NCBI GenBank assembly: GCA_018818785.1 | Contig: JAHIRF010000008.1 | Span: forward strand, 1-64,000 | Length of the DNA stretch: 64,000 nucleotides | Reading direction: 5' to 3' | From: Thermoplasmatota archaeon | GTDB taxonomy: Archaea > Thermoplasmatota > Thermoplasmata > UBA10834 | Shown: piece by piece, positions 51,426-64,000 of the stretch | Numbering within the stretch: position 1 is the first letter of the stretch | Layout of the letters: each line of letters opens with the position of its first letter | Program-made: the position numbers and the translations under genes | Notes under the pieces: generated by a model | What the model was told of the DNA's origin: nothing | Databases searched by the model: none | What the model saw: the letters and a program-made list of their open reading frames with translations, nothing else

Positions 51426-52502
51426 TCATGGACGGATGCGGGAGAAGTAATCATACACCGTCCGGGCGATCCGGGCCTCGACGTCCAATGTCTTCTCGAA
51501 ATGACCTTCCTCTACCTTATTGAAGAACGTGCAGAGGATTACGTGCGATTTCGCGGATATGAATATGATACCGGCGTTTGTAAGTGAAGCTGCGGTCCAT
51601 CCAGATTTCAGTGCGACCGGGGTGTCCGGGGACAGCAGATAGGACATCGATGTCGGATCCTTCTGACGCATCAGGAGCTTGAGCATTGCCTGACAGGCCT
51701 GCGGTGAGACGACCTCGTTCTTCAAGATCTTCTCGAGTATTATGCCGATCTCCCGGGGCGTGCTAAGATTGTCAAAGACCTCGTCGTAGACCCTCTGGGT
51801 CTTGAATTTCTTCTCTGCTCTGACACCATATATGCTCGCGTATCGGTTCCTGAAGTCCTCGATGGATAGGCCGGCGGATTCGCGCTCGGTCTCGTTCAGA
51901 GTCTTCATCCTTTCGACATCGGACATGCCCGACCATGCCCTCGCAGCCTCTGGTATGGTTCGGTCCTTGAGCGGGCCATAGCCCATGGACATGAGGAAGC
52001 TCTCCCTGTAGGGGATGTAGATGGACGTCTTGGCTAGGCCGAGTTCGCGCATGAGCATGTTGACCCTCTGGATGCCGATACGTTTCCATAGCATCTCGGA
52101 AGCAGTATTATCCGTAGCGATGATCATCAACGAAAGAAGGTCTCCCACCGTCGGTTTCAGGCCTGGAGACAGGTATTGCATGACGCCTTCGCCGATGCAA
52201 TAATGCCGGGGCTCCAGCTCGATCCGTTCCTCAAGGGATATCGATCCTTCCTCAATCTGTCTGAAGGTTTCTACCATCACACCCAACTTGAAAACGCTGG
52301 CCAGAGGGAAAGTCTTGTCCGCATCAACGGCTATTTCCCGACCGGATTCGACGTGCTTAATGAACAGTCCAAGATGACCCTTGACATCCTTTGCCATCTT
52401 GAGCAGCTCGGACTTTAGCCGAGTGAGGTCCGAACTCTCCGCAATCGCCGGGGTCTTTGTGGCCTTCTTCTTCGCAGTCAAATCCAACACCATCAAGGGC
52501 AA
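51426..52502 (-). CDS. Class A beta-lactamase-like serine hydrolase
   Basis: The 358-residue protein has the SxxK nucleophile motif as SVFK (about residues 68-71), the second motif as TDN (in ATDNTAS, Thr replacing Ser of SDN), and the third, KSG (about residue 297, in VALKSGWT). The E166xxLN stretch that activates water in class A beta-lactamases is not evident, so it may be a peptide esterase or transferase rather than a lactamase. No signal peptide is present, so it acts in the cytoplasm. It starts at ATG 52502 (or 52493). It is convergent with the DUF835 gene, ending six bases away. Confidence 0.8.
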   Translation of the reverse strand: MPLMVLDLTAKKKATKTPAIAESSDLTRLKSELLKMAKDVKGHLGLFIKHVESGREIAVDADKTFPLASVFKLGVMVETFRQIEEGSISLEERIELEPRHYCIGEGVMQYLSPGLKPTVGDLLSLMIIATDNTASEMLWKRIGIQRVNMLMRELGLAKTSIYIPYRESFLMSMGYGPLKDRTIPEAARAWSGMSDVERMKTLNETERESAGLSIEDFRNRYASIYGVRAEKKFKTQRVYDEVFDNLSTPREIGIILEKILKNEVVSPQACQAMLKLLMRQKDPTSMSYLLSPDTPVALKSGWTAASLTNAGIIFISAKSHVILCTFFNKVEEGHFEKTLDVEARIARTVYDYFSRIRP

Positions 52503-54846: not shown

Positions 54847-56952
54847 ATGCTGACCAGCCAAGAGATTGATAAAAATATCCTCACTGAAAGCATTCTCGAT
54901 GGCATTTTCGTCAGCAGCAAGTCTGGAGAGATCCTCTACTCGAACCCCGCGTTCGCGACCATCACAGGCCACCCCAAGAGCAAGATCAGGTCCATGAACC
55001 TTGGCAAGGGCATCGTCGATAGAGAGCTGGAATGGAAGGCCCTTGTGTCATTGCTGGAGCAGGGAAGTCCCATACATGATTATGAAATCAAGTTCAGGAA
55101 AGCCGATGACACGGTCATCATAATCGCCCTCACAGCGTCGATGATCCACGATGATAACGGTGTCCAGATAGGGATCGCGGGGGTGGCGAGGGACATAAGC
55201 ACTCGGAAGGGCGTCGAACGCGACCTTCGCGACAAGGCGTTCAGATCGGACATACTGAACAGGATTGCGAAGTTGGCAGGGACCAACAACGACGTGAAGG
55301 CGGTCCTAGGCAGCATCGCAGATGAATTCAGGAAGCTCGTGGATTTCGATAGGGTCGCTCTTGGTGTCATGGAGGACAAGGACAGGCATGTGGAAGTCAT
55401 AGTGCCGGACCCTGGCAATCCAAAGAAGGCGAAGTCTCTGGGCAAGGTTCCATATGAAGGCAGTCTCGTGGAGAAGCTCAAGTTCGGGGGCAATGCGATC
55501 ATAGTCGAGAAGGACGTCGGCAGGAAGCTGTTCTCAGAGTTCAGCATAATGGAGACTGGCAAAGTCAGTTCGATGATGGCGGTACCCCTGACCTCACGAG
55601 GCAAGACATTGGGCACCTTATGCATGATGCATGCAAGGCAGGGGGAGTACGATTGGGAGAAGACCGAGGCGCTGCAGATGGTCGCAGACCTTCTGGGAGG
55701 CATGATCGACAGCACGGTCCTGTTCAACTCGACCGAGAAGCAGATGCGGCTTCAGGAAACCCTTATCAGATCCAGTGTCGAATTGCAGAAGGCGATCGGG
55801 ACTGAGCAGATCTACGCGGCGATAGCGTCTTTCATCAAGGATATCGTACCGTACAATGACCTCTCGTTCTACATAGTCGACTGGCAGAGGAGGATAGTCC
55901 TCCCGGTCTACGCGGTCGGCGAATATGAGGACGAGATATTGGCGTCACCCGGCGGGCTCGACGAAGGTATGGTTGGATACATCGCAAAATCGGGGAAGGC
56001 GGAGTTCGTGGACGATGTCGATTCCGACCCCAGGACTGCAGCCATACCCGGGATGCCTCTCGAACACGATGCCATGATGGCGATCCCATTGATGGGATCC
56101 AATGGTGTGATCGGAGTCCTGGAATTGTATCGCGATAGTGGAAAGGTGTTCACCCAGAGTGATCTCGAGGCGGGCCTCTTGTTCGCGCAACAGGCTTCCG
56201 TGGCACTGTCCAACGCCCAGCTGGTAGCCAAACTCCAGGAGGCGAATAAGGAGATCGAATTGCTCAACGACCTCATGTTCCATGATATCAACAACTACAA
56301 TTTCGCGACCATGAACTACATCGAGACGGCAGCAAAGAGCCAGGACCTGCCCAAAGAGCTGCACATCTACCTCGACAAGTCCCTTCATCTGATAAGGAAG
56401 AACGCCAAACTCATCGACAACGTCAAGAAGCTCACGAAGATTGGAATAATGAATCCAAATGATTTCGTTCCAGTCAACCTTAGCGATGTCATCCGCAAGA
56501 TCGTTTCTGGCATATCCAGCTCGAACCCTGACAAGACCGTCAGCGTCAAACTAAACATCCCTGAACATGCGTTCATCAAGGCCAACGCCCTAGTCGAAGA
56601 ACTCATCTTCAACATTCTCAGCAACGCGATCAAGTACGACAACCACGACGAGATCGAGATAGACATCGACATGACTAGGATCCTGGACGGTGATGCACCG
56701 TGCTGGAAGATATGCATCTCGGACAGCGGCCCCGGCATCCCCGATGAGAAGAAGGGCATGCTGTTCCAGAGATTCGTGCGGCTCAAGACGGACTCCAAGG
56801 TCGCAGGGACCGGACTTGGCCTCTCCATATGCAGGGCACTCACTGACAAGTTCCAGGGAAGGATCTGGGTAGAGGACAAGGTCATGGGGAAGAGTGAGCT
56901 TGGAACCCGATTCTGCCTATTGTTTCCAGCTGAGAGGCATCAGCCTAAGTGA
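54847..56952 (+). CDS. PAS-GAF-GAF sensor histidine kinase
   Basis: The 701-residue soluble kinase has a PAS domain (about residues 10-120, GIFVSSKSGEILYSNPAFATITGH), two GAF domains (about 125-290, with DFDRVALGVMED, and about 305-460, with GMVGYIAKSGKAEFVDDV), a short coiled linker, the H-box FHDINNYNFATM (about 477), and the ATPase with N-box (FNILSNAIKYDNHDE) and G-boxes (DSGPGIPDEKKG, then GTGLGLSI). The HDINN form is the archaeal kinase type. Ligands and output are unknown; no response regulator is adjacent. Confidence 0.94.
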   Translation: MLTSQEIDKNILTESILDGIFVSSKSGEILYSNPAFATITGHPKSKIRSMNLGKGIVDRELEWKALVSLLEQGSPIHDYEIKFRKADDTVIIIALTASMIHDDNGVQIGIAGVARDISTRKGVERDLRDKAFRSDILNRIAKLAGTNNDVKAVLGSIADEFRKLVDFDRVALGVMEDKDRHVEVIVPDPGNPKKAKSLGKVPYEGSLVEKLKFGGNAIIVEKDVGRKLFSEFSIMETGKVSSMMAVPLTSRGKTLGTLCMMHARQGEYDWEKTEALQMVADLLGGMIDSTVLFNSTEKQMRLQETLIRSSVELQKAIGTEQIYAAIASFIKDIVPYNDLSFYIVDWQRRIVLPVYAVGEYEDEILASPGGLDEGMVGYIAKSGKAEFVDDVDSDPRTAAIPGMPLEHDAMMAIPLMGSNGVIGVLELYRDSGKVFTQSDLEAGLLFAQQASVALSNAQLVAKLQEANKEIELLNDLMFHDINNYNFATMNYIETAAKSQDLPKELHIYLDKSLHLIRKNAKLIDNVKKLTKIGIMNPNDFVPVNLSDVIRKIVSGISSSNPDKTVSVKLNIPEHAFIKANALVEELIFNILSNAIKYDNHDEIEIDIDMTRILDGDAPCWKICISDSGPGIPDEKKGMLFQRFVRLKTDSKVAGTGLGLSICRALTDKFQGRIWVEDKVMGKSELGTRFCLLFPAERHQPK

Positions 56953-57078: not shown

Positions 57079-60000
57079 TCACTTCGAGTAGCGACGTATG
57101 CCGACTCCGAGCGCTGTTACCGCCAACGCAGCAGCCACCGCAACCACCGTGAGCGACGCTACCTCTGCAGAGGATGATATCCCAGTTGCAGACGCCTGCT
57201 CACCCGACACGATTTCTGCTGGCGTCGATAATGCCAGGGCTTTCGGAGGCGATGCGATAACGTTGAACTCAATCCACGGTGCTCCGTGATATCGCGTTCC
57301 ATCCAGTCTGTATACGCTGTCGAAGTCCTTCGGACCGAGTATCGTCAGGGTCTTGGCAGCGTCATCGTACATTGGCGTCAAGTCTATTGGCGACGATGGG
57401 TTTGTCTGGAAGTATCCGAGCTCTAGGGTCCCGTCCTCACGTATGTCCATGAATCCATGGTTGTCGCCACCGATCAGATCTCCGTAGTCGGTCTTAGGAG
57501 CCGTGGTCGGTTTGCCCAGATATCCGATCTTCTCACCCATTGGGAGCTGGAATATCAGTGCATCATGTTCGCCAAGGTCGAGCCAGCCAGGAGTCGTATC
57601 GTACTTGACCTCTTGTCCGAATAAAGCGTCTCCGCTGTTCCAGCTAGTGTACTTCAGGTTCTCATAAGGCGCATATTCGGACGGATGACCCATTTGCGTT
57701 GTATAGTCGATTCTCACCGGCTCCCAGACCCATGCGGGGTCATCGACGGTCCCGTTCGCCTTGACCGCATGCAGACTATACTGGCAGACAGCATCCGAAG
57801 TAAGGTTCGAATCGATCGTGCCGTACTCCACCTGCATGGAGAAGTCCTCCCAGTACGGTTGATGGGCGCAGATGTTCGCATCGTCGAGCCAGCGGCACAT
57901 TAGGATCTCGAATCCCCAGCTGACATGTCCAATGGAAAGGACGACGTTGCCATCGCCATCAACTCTCATGTCCATCATCGTCGCAAGGTCGACGTAAGGC
58001 CATTCGAAGCCACACCAGATATCGAACACATCGTTCCCCTGGTCATCGATCCATGTCTGCCAATAGCTCATGTAGCTCGCTTTGTTGGCAGCCCACCAAG
58101 TGGCAGGGGTGTCCGCCTGTGGCATGTCGAGCCATACCTGAGCAGCAGGCCGGTTCAAGACGATCTCATAGGTCGTGCCAAGGTAATATCCGTCGTTGCC
58201 ACTATCGACGAGGTCATCGCCTGCCCAACCGGCAGTGCCGCTCCAGGTCGGTATCCAGTAGTCATCCCACCATTCGTAGGACAGGTACTGGAAGTATAGA
58301 TCCATCGACACAGATGGCGTCCCGGTCACGGTAGTCGGTCCACGAATCGGCATGAACTCAGGGTCGGTCACAGTGAGCTCCGGAATGTACTCCCCTTCCA
58401 TAGCCCATCTGTAAGGAGCGAATATCATGCCCTGGTAGAGTTTATCCGTTCCAGTTCCAACCGTATATCCAGGCATGTAAAGCAACGTGTTGTTGCCTTC
58501 TTCACTCGTTATGACATAGCTGTCGTCGTAACTCACCACGCGGCCCCAGTCTTCGTTCGTCCACCATTCACCCCATGGTTCCTCAAACATATCATACATC
58601 TCGTATGTCATTGAGCGATACCTCGGTATCACAACGGTGATAGACGCGCTGTCCGTCAACGAACCGACGCTGGTGTCCGTCACCTCGATGGTCTGAACGC
58701 CCGGAGTTATCAACACAAACTCGTTCGTGAATGTGCGTGTCCCCGCATCACCTGCGACGAATTCGTATTCCGATGGTAGCACCACCGAACCGGCCACGTC
58801 GCTGCTTTCGAATTCTATCGTGCCAGTGTACTCCGTATCCAATTCATGGTATTGATGCTCCACGCTGACCGTCAGCGTGAACTCAGCCCCGACATCGACC
58901 TCGGCAGGCGCGCCTTCGATCATCAGGTAGGTTGAGACCAGATCCTCGATGTCGATACCGCTCTGGGTACCAGTAGCACTTGTTACCACAGTATCTGCCA
59001 CCGTTAGGCTGAATATTCCTGGATCATCGAACTTCACAGCATTCTCGAACAGGCGTTCTCCATCGTCCAAGGCAGGCACGAATGTGTAGTCCGCAATCGG
59101 AGTCCATCCGCTTGCTGCGTCTGTCGAGAACTCGATCGTACCATCGTATTCATTGAAGACGTTGTTGTACTGATCATATGCCGTCACCAAAACATCGGAT
59201 ACGTTGCCTTCCCACATCGAAGTTATCCCTGTCACGGTGAAGTGATCTATAATCGGCACCACGTCCGTCACAAATATCTTGGTCTGATATCCAGTCAGAG
59301 ATGGATCACTCACGTCTATGACAGTGACGTTGAACCACCCAAGCACGGTGAAGTTCACGAGTTCCTCGAAAGTGTGGCTACCCATATCCGTGGCAGGTAC
59401 GAATGTGTAGTTGGGCGGAAAGTCTACGCCGGTTTCATTCGCCGTGAAGTTTATCGTGCCGTCGTATCCCGGGAATATGCGATCGTATTGATCGTATGCG
59501 TCCACCGTCACGGTCTCATTGACCTTCTGCACGACCGTATTCGATATTCCATATACATCGAGATATGTCGCGACGGCTTCGGGCAAGACTTCCACAGTCA
59601 CCGACCCTATGATCGACCCATCAACCGTATCCGTCGCCGTCAACGTCTGCATCCCGGGAGTCCCGAACATCACAGATGCTGGGAGTGTAATCTCGCCAGC
59701 ATCCAGGATATCGAAAGTCTGGTCGCTGATTGACGGAGACAGCAGGTCAGTACACGTGAAGGTTACGGTCCCCACGTACGTCGTGTAGGGATTGTCCCAT
59801 TGATCCAGCACAGTCACCGTCAGGTCAGACAATGACTCGTTGGCATACGATGGGTCGGCTACATCGGTCAGCACGAAATGAGGTACTGGCATCTCCTCGA
59901 CAACGATATTCAACTGCGAACCAGATATCGATGGCGTATCGACATCATATGCAGTAAGGTCGTGCGTACCAGGAGTCATGTAGGTGACCGCATCGCTCGG

Positions 60001-62583
60001 GAATGTCTTCATCCCACCATCAGTCAGCAGGAACGTATACTCGGTCGGTGAGAAGATCGCGGCACTGTCGTTTGACGAGAATTCTATCGTTCCAGTGTAT
60101 GTCGGGTACAACTCACCAAACTGATCCAATACGATCACATCGAATCCGGATGATTCGCCTTCCATGATCGGACTGGTAACGTTCTCGACCCGTAGCTCAT
60201 ATGGATATGGTGCCTCAGTCACGGTGATGGCGAACTGCGCCCCGAAGATGGTCATATCATCGGTATAGTTGACAACCAAATCGTGCTCGCCCAGCGTGTT
60301 GAATACGACCTCACCCGCAGCGAAGGTGTGCGTGCCGGCGTCACCTACATCGAAGGTATAGTTGTCTGGCAGCTCAGCGAGTGGATCCGTGGACGAGAAT
60401 GTTATCGTCCCGGCGAAGGTTGGGACCAATTCGTCGAATTGATCCAACGCCGATACGGTGAAGCTCGAAGACTCTCCTGCCACGATCGGGTCGGTGTAGC
60501 CTGACACATCGAACAATGTCAGCTCGGCCGGTCCTGTCAACCGGAATTCGATCGTTGGCATACCATATGGCAGCAGCCCCAAACGATCCCACTCTGATTC
60601 GAGCAATCCCGATCGATCCTGGTCACGAGACCATGTCCACATATCAATAGGGCCTACGAACTCGATCATCCTATCGGTAGTATCGATCGATATCTGACCC
60701 GGGAAGTCTATCGCCATTGGCTCCATGTAATCGACCGTCATGAGCCAATCCTCCAGCGCGAACTCGCCAGGCTGTATGTGTCTCAAGAACATCTGCTCCC
60801 CGGAGGGCCAGGTGAACCGCACGGTCTCGCCTTCTGTCAGGTTGAGCACGCCAGGCACGTAATCGTAGTACATCTCGGTTCCGTACAACGGACTTCCTGG
60901 CGCGGTGCAGGTGTAGGTCTTGCCCTCATACAGTTCGAAGAGGGATGGGTGAGCGAGCGATGTTATGTAATCTGCGAGCAGCCCTTCCCACATCCAGCAG
61001 GGTAATCCATCATCAGTGGTCTCATACGCATATATGGCATACTCAATTGCGGTCGATATGTCTAGGTCCATCATCTCGGGACCGATCTCCGCATGCATCG
61101 AGAAATCCTCGAACCAGTACTCGGTATCGTCCATCCATGCATCGTGCATCCACCTCGACATCAGGGCCTCGAATCCCCATGAGACGATCAACTGGTTCAC
61201 AACAACCTGATCACCGACGCGCTCGGCTGTGAGCTCGTGCTTGAACGGCTGTAACATGTACTCATACATGCAGTAGATGTCGAGCCTGTCGTTCGCTTCG
61301 GAATCGATGTAGTTCCACCAGCTGGTTCTGACAGATGCACCATTCGTCGTCCACCAGGAAGCGAATGTATCCCATTCGTTCGAAGGCATGCCAAGGACGG
61401 ACATCGCTGCAGCCTGGTCGAGAGTCGTCTCTCCTTCGAATATCGTGATCCATCCATCGTTGTTGTCCGCAGCGGAGGGTGAGAGAACAGCTAACTCGGC
61501 GTCAGTTCCATATGTGAAGTACCAATCGAGCACGGCGTTGCCACCGGTCGTGGTCCCGAGGTTCGGGAGGAACAATGGTCGCTCGTTCATGTTGATATCG
61601 GTCATGTTCCTTCCGGTTATGTCCAACCGCATGTTGGAATAAGTCCAGACGTTGCCCTCCTGAGAACCATCGACCCAGTCATATACATAGGGATAACTGT
61701 CACTCCAAGTGACCTCGTCGCTTCTCTTCTCGTACCATTCACCGAAAGGCACATTGAACATATCATACCAATAGTAATCGACCGTCCTTGGGTACTCTTC
61801 CCCACTTACGGTTATCATCGAAGAACCCGTGGCGCTGTGTGTGCTGTCAGTAGCTGTTGCGTTCAACCAAGCAACGCCCTCGACGAGGCCGGTGAATGTG
61901 ACACTCTCCCCCTCAGTGGCACTGAGGGTGTACTCACCAGTTGCAGGACCCTCGACGTCCCATGAGAGATCTACCCCAGTCATCTCGCCTCCGACTGAAT
62001 CGTAGGCAGTGGCAGTGAATATGGAACTCACATCCACGGAGACCGTCTTGGTAGCCGGGACTATGGTCACACTGTTCAGATACGGCGGATTGATCGTTAT
62101 GTCCTGAGCCACGGTCTCGTTCAAATCATCGATCTCGACGAGACACGAAAGGGTTCCCGTTCCACCCACGTTGTTGACGGTGAGGTTGCAGTAACGGTTC
62201 CCGGACAGGTCAAGGGATCCAAGCGTGATGGGGTCCCTCAACCATCTGTAGTCAACGCTGGAATTGCCATCAAGTGACGTCGTTTCGCCAGTGTCAACAT
62301 TTCGCAACACGGATGAAACATAGAACATCACGATGGATCCCGCTTCCGCCGTCACTTCCGTCGCAGGATATACGGTGACGACAAGTTCCATTTCAGCAGT
62401 CCCTTCATCACCACCATCATCCACCATCAGAACATAGACAACGGTGCTCAGCAGCAGGATCGCGACAATAATCGCAACGATCATCAGCCAAAGCTTTCTA
62501 CCGCCCTTGCTCTTTGGTGGCGAGATGGGTTCTGGTGAAGCATTCTCGCTAGCTGGCTCACTAGTTGACAGGCCTTCAGACAT
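57079..62583 (-). CDS. Giant cell-surface protein: repeated domain, six Ig-like repeats, two membrane anchors
   Basis: The 1834-residue protein has a short cytoplasmic tail, an N-terminal helix (LWLMIVAIIVAILLLSTVVYVLMV, about 31-54), two Ig-like domains (about 60-260), a large domain A (about 265-600), six Ig-like repeats of about 106 residues (about 687-1320), a second copy of the large domain, B (about 1320-1700), and a C-terminal helix with RRYSK. Copies A and B share blocks such as YDMFxxPxGEWY, VSWGFExLMxRWxxDA and EDFSMxxE. No catalytic motif was recognised. Both ends appear to be in the membrane, with a huge external loop. It is divergent from a solute-binding gene, with about 620 bases between. 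GGGGG lies nine bases before the ATG. Confidence 0.88.
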   Translation of the reverse strand: MSEGLSTSEPASENASPEPISPPKSKGGRKLWLMIVAIIVAILLLSTVVYVLMVDDGGDEGTAEMELVVTVYPATEVTAEAGSIVMFYVSSVLRNVDTGETTSLDGNSSVDYRWLRDPITLGSLDLSGNRYCNLTVNNVGGTGTLSCLVEIDDLNETVAQDITINPPYLNSVTIVPATKTVSVDVSSIFTATAYDSVGGEMTGVDLSWDVEGPATGEYTLSATEGESVTFTGLVEGVAWLNATATDSTHSATGSSMITVSGEEYPRTVDYYWYDMFNVPFGEWYEKRSDEVTWSDSYPYVYDWVDGSQEGNVWTYSNMRLDITGRNMTDINMNERPLFLPNLGTTTGGNAVLDWYFTYGTDAELAVLSPSAADNNDGWITIFEGETTLDQAAAMSVLGMPSNEWDTFASWWTTNGASVRTSWWNYIDSEANDRLDIYCMYEYMLQPFKHELTAERVGDQVVVNQLIVSWGFEALMSRWMHDAWMDDTEYWFEDFSMHAEIGPEMMDLDISTAIEYAIYAYETTDDGLPCWMWEGLLADYITSLAHPSLFELYEGKTYTCTAPGSPLYGTEMYYDYVPGVLNLTEGETVRFTWPSGEQMFLRHIQPGEFALEDWLMTVDYMEPMAIDFPGQISIDTTDRMIEFVGPIDMWTWSRDQDRSGLLESEWDRLGLLPYGMPTIEFRLTGPAELTLFDVSGYTDPIVAGESSSFTVSALDQFDELVPTFAGTITFSSTDPLAELPDNYTFDVGDAGTHTFAAGEVVFNTLGEHDLVVNYTDDMTIFGAQFAITVTEAPYPYELRVENVTSPIMEGESSGFDVIVLDQFGELYPTYTGTIEFSSNDSAAIFSPTEYTFLLTDGGMKTFPSDAVTYMTPGTHDLTAYDVDTPSISGSQLNIVVEEMPVPHFVLTDVADPSYANESLSDLTVTVLDQWDNPYTTYVGTVTFTCTDLLSPSISDQTFDILDAGEITLPASVMFGTPGMQTLTATDTVDGSIIGSVTVEVLPEAVATYLDVYGISNTVVQKVNETVTVDAYDQYDRIFPGYDGTINFTANETGVDFPPNYTFVPATDMGSHTFEELVNFTVLGWFNVTVIDVSDPSLTGYQTKIFVTDVVPIIDHFTVTGITSMWEGNVSDVLVTAYDQYNNVFNEYDGTIEFSTDAASGWTPIADYTFVPALDDGERLFENAVKFDDPGIFSLTVADTVVTSATGTQSGIDIEDLVSTYLMIEGAPAEVDVGAEFTLTVSVEHQYHELDTEYTGTIEFESSDVAGSVVLPSEYEFVAGDAGTRTFTNEFVLITPGVQTIEVTDTSVGSLTDSASITVVIPRYRSMTYEMYDMFEEPWGEWWTNEDWGRVVSYDDSYVITSEEGNNTLLYMPGYTVGTGTDKLYQGMIFAPYRWAMEGEYIPELTVTDPEFMPIRGPTTVTGTPSVSMDLYFQYLSYEWWDDYWIPTWSGTAGWAGDDLVDSGNDGYYLGTTYEIVLNRPAAQVWLDMPQADTPATWWAANKASYMSYWQTWIDDQGNDVFDIWCGFEWPYVDLATMMDMRVDGDGNVVLSIGHVSWGFEILMCRWLDDANICAHQPYWEDFSMQVEYGTIDSNLTSDAVCQYSLHAVKANGTVDDPAWVWEPVRIDYTTQMGHPSEYAPYENLKYTSWNSGDALFGQEVKYDTTPGWLDLGEHDALIFQLPMGEKIGYLGKPTTAPKTDYGDLIGGDNHGFMDIREDGTLELGYFQTNPSSPIDLTPMYDDAAKTLTILGPKDFDSVYRLDGTRYHGAPWIEFNVIASPPKALALSTPAEIVSGEQASATGISSSAEVASLTVVAVAAALAVTALGVGIRRYSK
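58622..60530 (-). repeat. Six tandem Ig-like repeats inside the giant surface protein
   Basis: Six units of about 106 residues each share the frame xLxVxDQxxxxxxxYxGTIxFS, then a YTF strand, an xDxGxHTF turn, and a PGxxxLTxxD ending. For example, unit 1 has LDQFDELVPTFAGTITFSS and unit 2 has LDQFGELYPTYTGTIEFSS. The DNA of the repeats has diverged, so duplication is old. Confidence 0.8.
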
Positions 62584-63200: not shown

Positions 63201-64000
63201 GTGGGTGACTTAGTTCGAAGAGTCTTGTCCATGAGCGTTGTCGCACTGATTGTAGGAATCCTGTCCATACCTTTGGCAGGCATCTTTGGGATGATTGGAC
63301 CAGCCGAGGGGGCTGATGAAGAGGTGGTCCTGAAGGTAGGGTTCATGCAGATGGTTGATAACCTCAATCCGAATGTCGGATTGAGTGATGCAGCCTACGT
63401 CTACTACGGTTTAGTCTATGATGCCTTGCATACCGTGCAGGATGACTTCGTCACTGAAGGCAATCTCGCAACATCCTGGAGGATGGTCCCTGCGGACGAC
63501 CCTGAGCTCATCGCATCTGGCGAACCGCTTGGGTCCGTCTGGGAATATGACATAACGGAAGATGCATATTGGCACGACGGACAGCCTCTTACAGTAGATG
63601 ACGTCGTGTTCACATTTAACTTGAACATCTTTGAATACGATTCATTCTGGGCATATCAGCCGTATGCGTACTTCATGCAATATGCTGAAGCTATCGACGA
63701 GAATACAATCCGGATCCACTACTATGACAGAGAGACGGAGGAACCTCTGCCATGTGCATATGCGCACTTGATTTGCATACCGATTCTCCCGAAGCATAAG
63801 CTGCAGAGCATGGATCCATTTGACATCGCATTCAACTGGCAGGGAGTGTTCGACGGAGAAGAGTATCCTGTTGTTGGGACTGGACCGTTCACAGCCACGG
63901 AGTACATGTACGACGAATGGAATTCCGGAGACCACATAACGCTCGTCAAGAACCCTAACTACCATGGCGGATCAGACGATGATTGGGAAGTGAGCTTCGA
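63201..64000 (+). CDS. Family 5 ABC transporter substrate-binding protein (partial)
   Basis: The coding region runs off the right edge, so only the first 266 residues are seen. It has a signal sequence (LSMSVVALIVGILSIPLAGIFGMI, ending near EGADEE), then the oligopeptide-binding family pattern: KVGFMQMVDNLNPNVGLSD, WEYDITEDAYWHDGQPLTVDDVVFTFNL, PILPKHKL, and VGTGPFTATEY. This is an OppA/DppA-like receptor for peptides or similar solutes. The GTG at 63201 is the start: it has GGGGGAAAG upstream and a stop (TAA) directly before it in frame. Permease and ATPase genes probably follow outside the window. Confidence 0.92.
   Translation, partial: MGDLVRRVLSMSVVALIVGILSIPLAGIFGMIGPAEGADEEVVLKVGFMQMVDNLNPNVGLSDAAYVYYGLVYDALHTVQDDFVTEGNLATSWRMVPADDPELIASGEPLGSVWEYDITEDAYWHDGQPLTVDDVVFTFNLNIFEYDSFWAYQPYAYFMQYAEAIDENTIRIHYYDRETEEPLPCAYAHLICIPILPKHKLQSMDPFDIAFNWQGVFDGEEYPVVGTGPFTATEYMYDEWNSGDHITLVKNPNYHGGSDDDWEVSF

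Follow-up and report, generated by a model that had tools for sequence, protein, structure and literature searches.

A doubly anchored giant surface protein of a Thermoplasmatota archaeon carries two copies of a previously unnamed domain and is genomically linked to an Opp-type importer

The giant protein and its parts

The window analysed here (the whole stretch of DNA, 64,000 nucleotides of a Thermoplasmatota archaeon) contains a very long gene for a putative surface protein, which faces a gene for an OppA-like binding protein. A preliminary description placed two related large domains, A and B, around six Ig repeats and between two membrane anchors, and suggested a peptide-capture or S-layer-type assembly. 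What A and B are, and what such a protein does beside a transporter, are the questions addressed here.

The doubly anchored reading frame proved to be genuine. It lies on the minus strand, from 62583 down to 57079, with its ATG immediately 3' of the preceding stop, and encodes one protein of 1,834 aa, whose orthologue in genome G001 is 58% identical over aa 1-1833. From its N-terminus, the chain consists of a membrane helix, two Ig-like domains, A, six Ig repeats, B and a second membrane helix, all encoded on the same strand. The first helix (aa ~31-49; 62425..62493) is signal-anchor-like and is preceded by a basic stretch, while the second (aa ~1811-1829; 57097..57165) is followed by RRYSK. 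Both were identified by hydropathy and are present in most orthologues with both ends intact and a length sufficient for assessment. Because of the basic N-terminus before the first helix and the RRYSK after the second, both ends are probably cytoplasmic and the ectodomain would form a single loop. The two Ig-like domains (aa ~65-165 and ~166-262; 61798..62391) were recognised by their sequence pattern and match Ig regions of other archaeal proteins, with no Pfam match.

The giant contains 22 N-glycosylation sequons. No catalytic or ligand motif was recognised in it, and the SBP_bac_5 model PF00496 was absent from it in the Pfam search, being present only in neighbours and fused paralogues. 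The PEF-CTERM model TIGR03024 had no hit at its C-terminus. Among the A/B paralogues, the tails of L026 and L035 passed the PEF-CTERM (archaeosortase) cut-off, and IPEF..RRRR tails end several (L026, L029, L035, L038, L040, L051 and L057).

The spacer between A and B (aa 685-1320; 58624..60531) consists of six Ig-type repeats of ~106 aa each, as had been described; their pairwise identity is 25-44%, and a repeat HMM finds all six. In complete members of the window's archaeal family, the spacer is always a whole number of repeats (2, 3, 5 or 6). The plan had been called symmetric: A and B do flank the repeats, but they are direct repeats, so that the arrangement is a repeat around a spacer and not mirror symmetry. 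A 1,928-aa protein from another family of the class (G054; L041, 5629-11412) has five such Ig repeats without A/B domains.

Domains A and B and their family

Domain A (aa 266-682; 60538..61788, minus strand) and domain B (aa 1323-1775; 57259..58617, minus strand) were delimited by HMM, alignment and structure prediction. They share 33% identity over 375 aa (E 5e-42), and the blocks YDMFNVPFGEWY/YDMFEEPWGEWW, VSWGFEALMSRWMHDA/VSWGFEILMCRWLDDA and EDFSM occur in both, which bears out the proposed duplication. Both are rich in aromatic residues (Trp 5.5%, Tyr 6.5-7.3%). The invariant columns of the aligned family include R22, D273 and S282 (A numbering), and there is no His or Cys among the invariant A/B columns.

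The earlier impression that no named family covers these domains held in every search. No Pfam or NCBIfam family matched the giant at E<=1. When 49 domain members were compared with the same libraries, only scattered matches were found (best E 0.003), to no named family. A profile search of PDB sequences with the alignment of these 49 domains gave no solved relative, and the Fenna-Matthews-Olson (FMO) bacteriochlorophyll a antenna protein was not listed. Iterated HMM searches over 40 loci yielded 60 domain matches; 54 domains cover about 300 or more profile positions. As judged from sequence, A and B thus constitute a surface domain family of ~430 residues that had not been named before, defined here in uncultivated sediment archaea by these 54 domains and two confident structure models.

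Among 60 related genomes, the giant had a match in every genome searched from its own genus, family and order; matches in the class's other families were weak and mostly to Ig regions alone. Of 389 genomes across the phylum, just two matched the domain profile, the window genome and another from its family. A GTDB-wide scan was run with patterns specific to A, since the 49 domains together gave too heterogeneous a profile for this use. Each of the 16 loci that it returned belongs to a metagenome genome of Thermoplasmata or Euryarchaeota. From these searches, the A/B family seems restricted to a single order of uncultivated Thermoplasmata. A literature search found no paper naming metagenome-assembled genomes of this lineage. 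Isotope probing has shown that the order SG8-5 (Ca. Proteinoplasmatales) catabolises protein (PMC9123169); we do not equate that order with the window's.

In a maximum-likelihood tree of the 54 domains, an A side was separated from a B side (97/86). Within the window's archaeal family, every first domain fell on the A side and every second domain on the B side, which places the divergence of A and B before that of this family. The second domains of two sister-family genomes formed long branches by the A side. A stand-alone gene (L085) encodes a true, divergent member of the family. The double plan is not obligatory, since G003, which belongs to the window's genus, carries at the corresponding position a protein of 783 aa in which A stands alone (L045), indicating that the repeats and B can be lost.

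Predicted structures

AlphaFold models of A and B were confident (pLDDT 95.6 and pTM 0.92 for A; pLDDT 95.2 and pTM 0.93 for B) and closely matched each other in the order of strands and helices. Both domains are predicted to be large antiparallel beta-sheet domains rich in Trp and Tyr. In Foldseek, FMO antenna proteins led the hits of A and of B by a wide E-value margin (E 6e-6 for A, 3e-5 for B), with a TM score of about 0.2 or less. In VIA, the match to FMO reached Z 8.6 for A (179 residues, 4.4 A) and Z 8.1 for B (170 residues, 4.5 A), in a range where unrelated folds can reach about Z 8. These alignments run from N to C across the whole domain at 6-10% identity. As A and B are homologous, the two matches count as one observation. 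The next match in VIA was the GPI transamidase subunit PIG-T (Z 7.7 for A, 7.2 for B); together, the beta-rich domains of PIG-T and OST1/ribophorin I, which are eukaryotic ER proteins without sequence similarity to A or B, gave Z 6.3-7.7 for A and 5.4-7.2 for B at rmsd 4.7-6 A. A library of viral structures contained no match at E<=0.001.

FMO (BChl_A, PF02327), whose fold is one large, wrapped antiparallel beta-sheet, is therefore the best fold match of both domains, whereas they share no sequence similarity with it, lack an invariant His and occur outside any context of phototrophy. A relationship by sequence was tried and rejected, as PF02327 had no match at E<=10 in G000, G004 or G007. We take the resemblance between these models and FMO as a suggestive lead on the fold class and not as homology. 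If it were upheld, FMO would gain a possible relative outside phototrophs.

Linkage to an SBP5-OppB-OppC importer

The gene that faces the giant, at 63201..64000 on the plus strand, was correctly described as OppA-like. It is a divergent SBP_bac_5 (SBP5) gene (E 2e-57) that continues past the window to 65195 and is followed, just outside the window, by OppB and OppC; these importer genes reach the Pfam cut-offs (SBP_bac_5 PF00496; OppB/OppC PF00528 and PF12911). The co-occurrence of A/B domains with OppA-like genes that had been anticipated was found in three forms. Giants with A and B are divergent from SBP5-OppB-OppC in three genera (for example in G000, G001, G006, G008, G014, G015 and G017), and in G007 an SBP5 gene also adjoins such a giant. 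At two loci (L022 and L054), an A-domain gene closes an operon of the order SBP5-OppB-OppC-MttB(-MttB), whose genes overlap or lie about 50 bp apart. In five genomes (G000, G007, G009, G013 and G017), SBP5, Ig domains, an A/B domain and a membrane helix are fused in one protein. Linkage to SBP5-OppB-OppC across genera is the property on which we base the proposal of an accessory of an Opp-type importer.

The fusions require at least 5-6 label changes on the domain tree, which we read as five or more origins, and L042, the fusion in the window genome itself, groups as sister to the window's A (99/98). In three genomes that each form a single contig, SBP5 lay close by more often for A/B genes than for relocated ones (p about 0.007 at 3 kb and 0.04 at 10 kb). 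Taken together, the genomic context supports a coupling of the giant to the importer. Against it, no SBP5 or Opp gene was found within several kb of the giants in G016 (both copies) or of one giant in G004, and no OppD/OppF ATPase was noted beside the window's locus.

By itself, fusion says little for a dedicated partnership, because SBP5 is commonly fused to other surface modules in this genome. Six of the eight SBP5 genes of the window genome encode long proteins with PKD, Big_1, MG4, CarboxypepD or A-type modules, and most of its SBP_bac_5 proteins (G000 C1, C7, C8 and C9; L078-L082) have 860-1,780 aa and PKD/Big_1/MG4/CarboxypepD ectodomains. Other long SBP5 proteins of the lineage contained no A/B domains in searches with filters off, and a literature search on SBP/PKD surface fusions in Thermoplasmatota found no relevant paper.

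The permease itself varies. OppC has ~600 aa at the orthologous loci L023, L027, L028, L030, L033 and L052, and in that of L027 two PKD domains follow an additional membrane helix at the N-terminus and precede OppC_N. The window genome's OppC has 351 aa and lacks these additions.

MttB-type methyltransferases beside A/B genes

Genes for a pterin-binding methyltransferase, a corrinoid protein and MttB lie downstream at several of the divergent giant/SBP5 loci. At three further loci (L049, L057 and L060), an A/B gene and an adjacent MttB gene have the same orientation across gaps of 29-330 bp, with a small ORF between them in L060. Of 11 stand-alone A/B genes, 5 had such a co-directional MttB neighbour; counted by lineage, the figure is 3 of 8, more than expected by chance in a post hoc test (p about 1e-4 to 8e-4). 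These neighbours pass the Pfam MTTB cut-off and fall under the pyrrolysine equivalog cut-off, as do non-pyrrolysine methyltransferases of quaternary amines. Proximity to MttB as a genome-wide rule was rejected (p 0.10-0.25 at 3-10 kb in three single-contig genomes), and only direct operon neighbours were kept. All 17 searched genomes of the order have 11-25 MttB-family genes each; most of those listed are without an internal stop and a few have one.

A precedent exists in Methanolobus, where the glycine betaine methyltransferase gene likewise lies between a transporter and its corrinoid protein, and transporter-mtgB-mtgC is the known gene order for glycine betaine use (PMC6855144). The loci described here resemble such non-pyrrolysine MttB/MtgB clusters in that a transporter adjoins an mttB-type gene and a corrinoid protein. 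They differ in that the known cluster has an OpuD-type transporter, and its description includes no giant surface protein. This context would tie the A/B family to the uptake of organic nitrogen compounds and to corrinoid methyl transfer.

A possible role and its alternatives

We propose that the giant serves an Opp/Dpp-type (SBP_bac_5) ABC importer as a surface accessory, most likely holding substrate or docking the binding protein near the permease, a proposal for and against which we find the balance about even. The chain would leave the membrane at the N-terminal helix and re-enter it at the C-terminal helix, and A and B would be the two working heads of the resulting loop. We infer that the heads bind a ligand or the substrate-binding protein; they might thus keep importer substrate, or the docked binding protein, close to OppB/OppC. 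The Ig repeats could serve as a spacer of adjustable length that sets the reach of the heads, and we count in favour of an importer accessory that conservation of A, B and the anchors goes with a spacer that changes by whole repeats. The likeness to Opp/Dpp/Nik-type importers lies in SBP_bac_5 and OppB/OppC being divergent, co-operonic or fused partners of A/B genes; the giant differs in that, by sequence, it has no SBP fold. To our knowledge, canonical Opp-type systems have no doubly anchored accessory protein of this kind.

The substrate would most likely be methylated (quaternary) amines, which are favoured by the MttB operons, or else peptides, which are favoured by the SBP5 family and by general ecology. 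With MttB-type methyltransferases among the operon partners, methylated amines are as plausible as the peptides suggested at the outset.

An S-layer-type assembly, the other suggestion of the preliminary description, found no specific support, and we consider it unlikely that the giant is a structural envelope protein. A and B would then form a lattice or belong to a wall spacer, and the position beside opp would be incidental or reflect a shared envelope layer. The great size, double anchoring, richness in Ig domains and sequons of the giant would suit such a protein, as would the several paralogues per genome, some with PEF-CTERM-like tails. A lattice accounts poorly for the recurring operons with SBP5, OppB, OppC and MttB and for the repeated SBP5 fusions, or for the retention of A alone at L045 and a spacer count that ranges from 2 to 6, and the giant matches no Pfam or NCBIfam S-layer model.

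The same operons and fusions would also be compatible with A and B acting outside the cell as enzymes (hydrolases or demodifying enzymes) on a polymer or conjugate, the product of which Opp would then take up. The invariant R22, D273 and S282 could be read in this way, but invariant columns without His or Cys, the absence of a match to any Pfam or NCBIfam enzyme family and first fold matches to non-enzymatic beta-shell proteins make this improbable. It is likewise doubtful that the giant is an ordinary adhesin whose A and B bind a mineral, a polymer or another cell and whose link to opp reflects the benefit of staying near food: an Ig stalk with large surface heads is typical of adhesins, but heads on a chain anchored at both ends cannot reach far, and they are found fused directly to SBP5. 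Quite improbable, finally, is the reading that the FMO antenna fold has in A and B its first relatives beyond phototrophs. They would be surface beta-shells closed around a ligand that is hydrophobic or planar (a corrinoid, another tetrapyrrole or a methylated amine pool) and meant for the importer and for the corrinoid-dependent methyltransferases.

Other genes near the giant

Two further genes of the window lie on the side of the giant away from SBP5. At 51426-52502 on the minus strand is a class A beta-lactamase-like gene (PF13354, E 1e-47), which scores below every NCBIfam beta-lactamase cut-off shown. A PAS/GAF sensor histidine kinase gene at 54847-56952 on the plus strand adjoins the giant directly.
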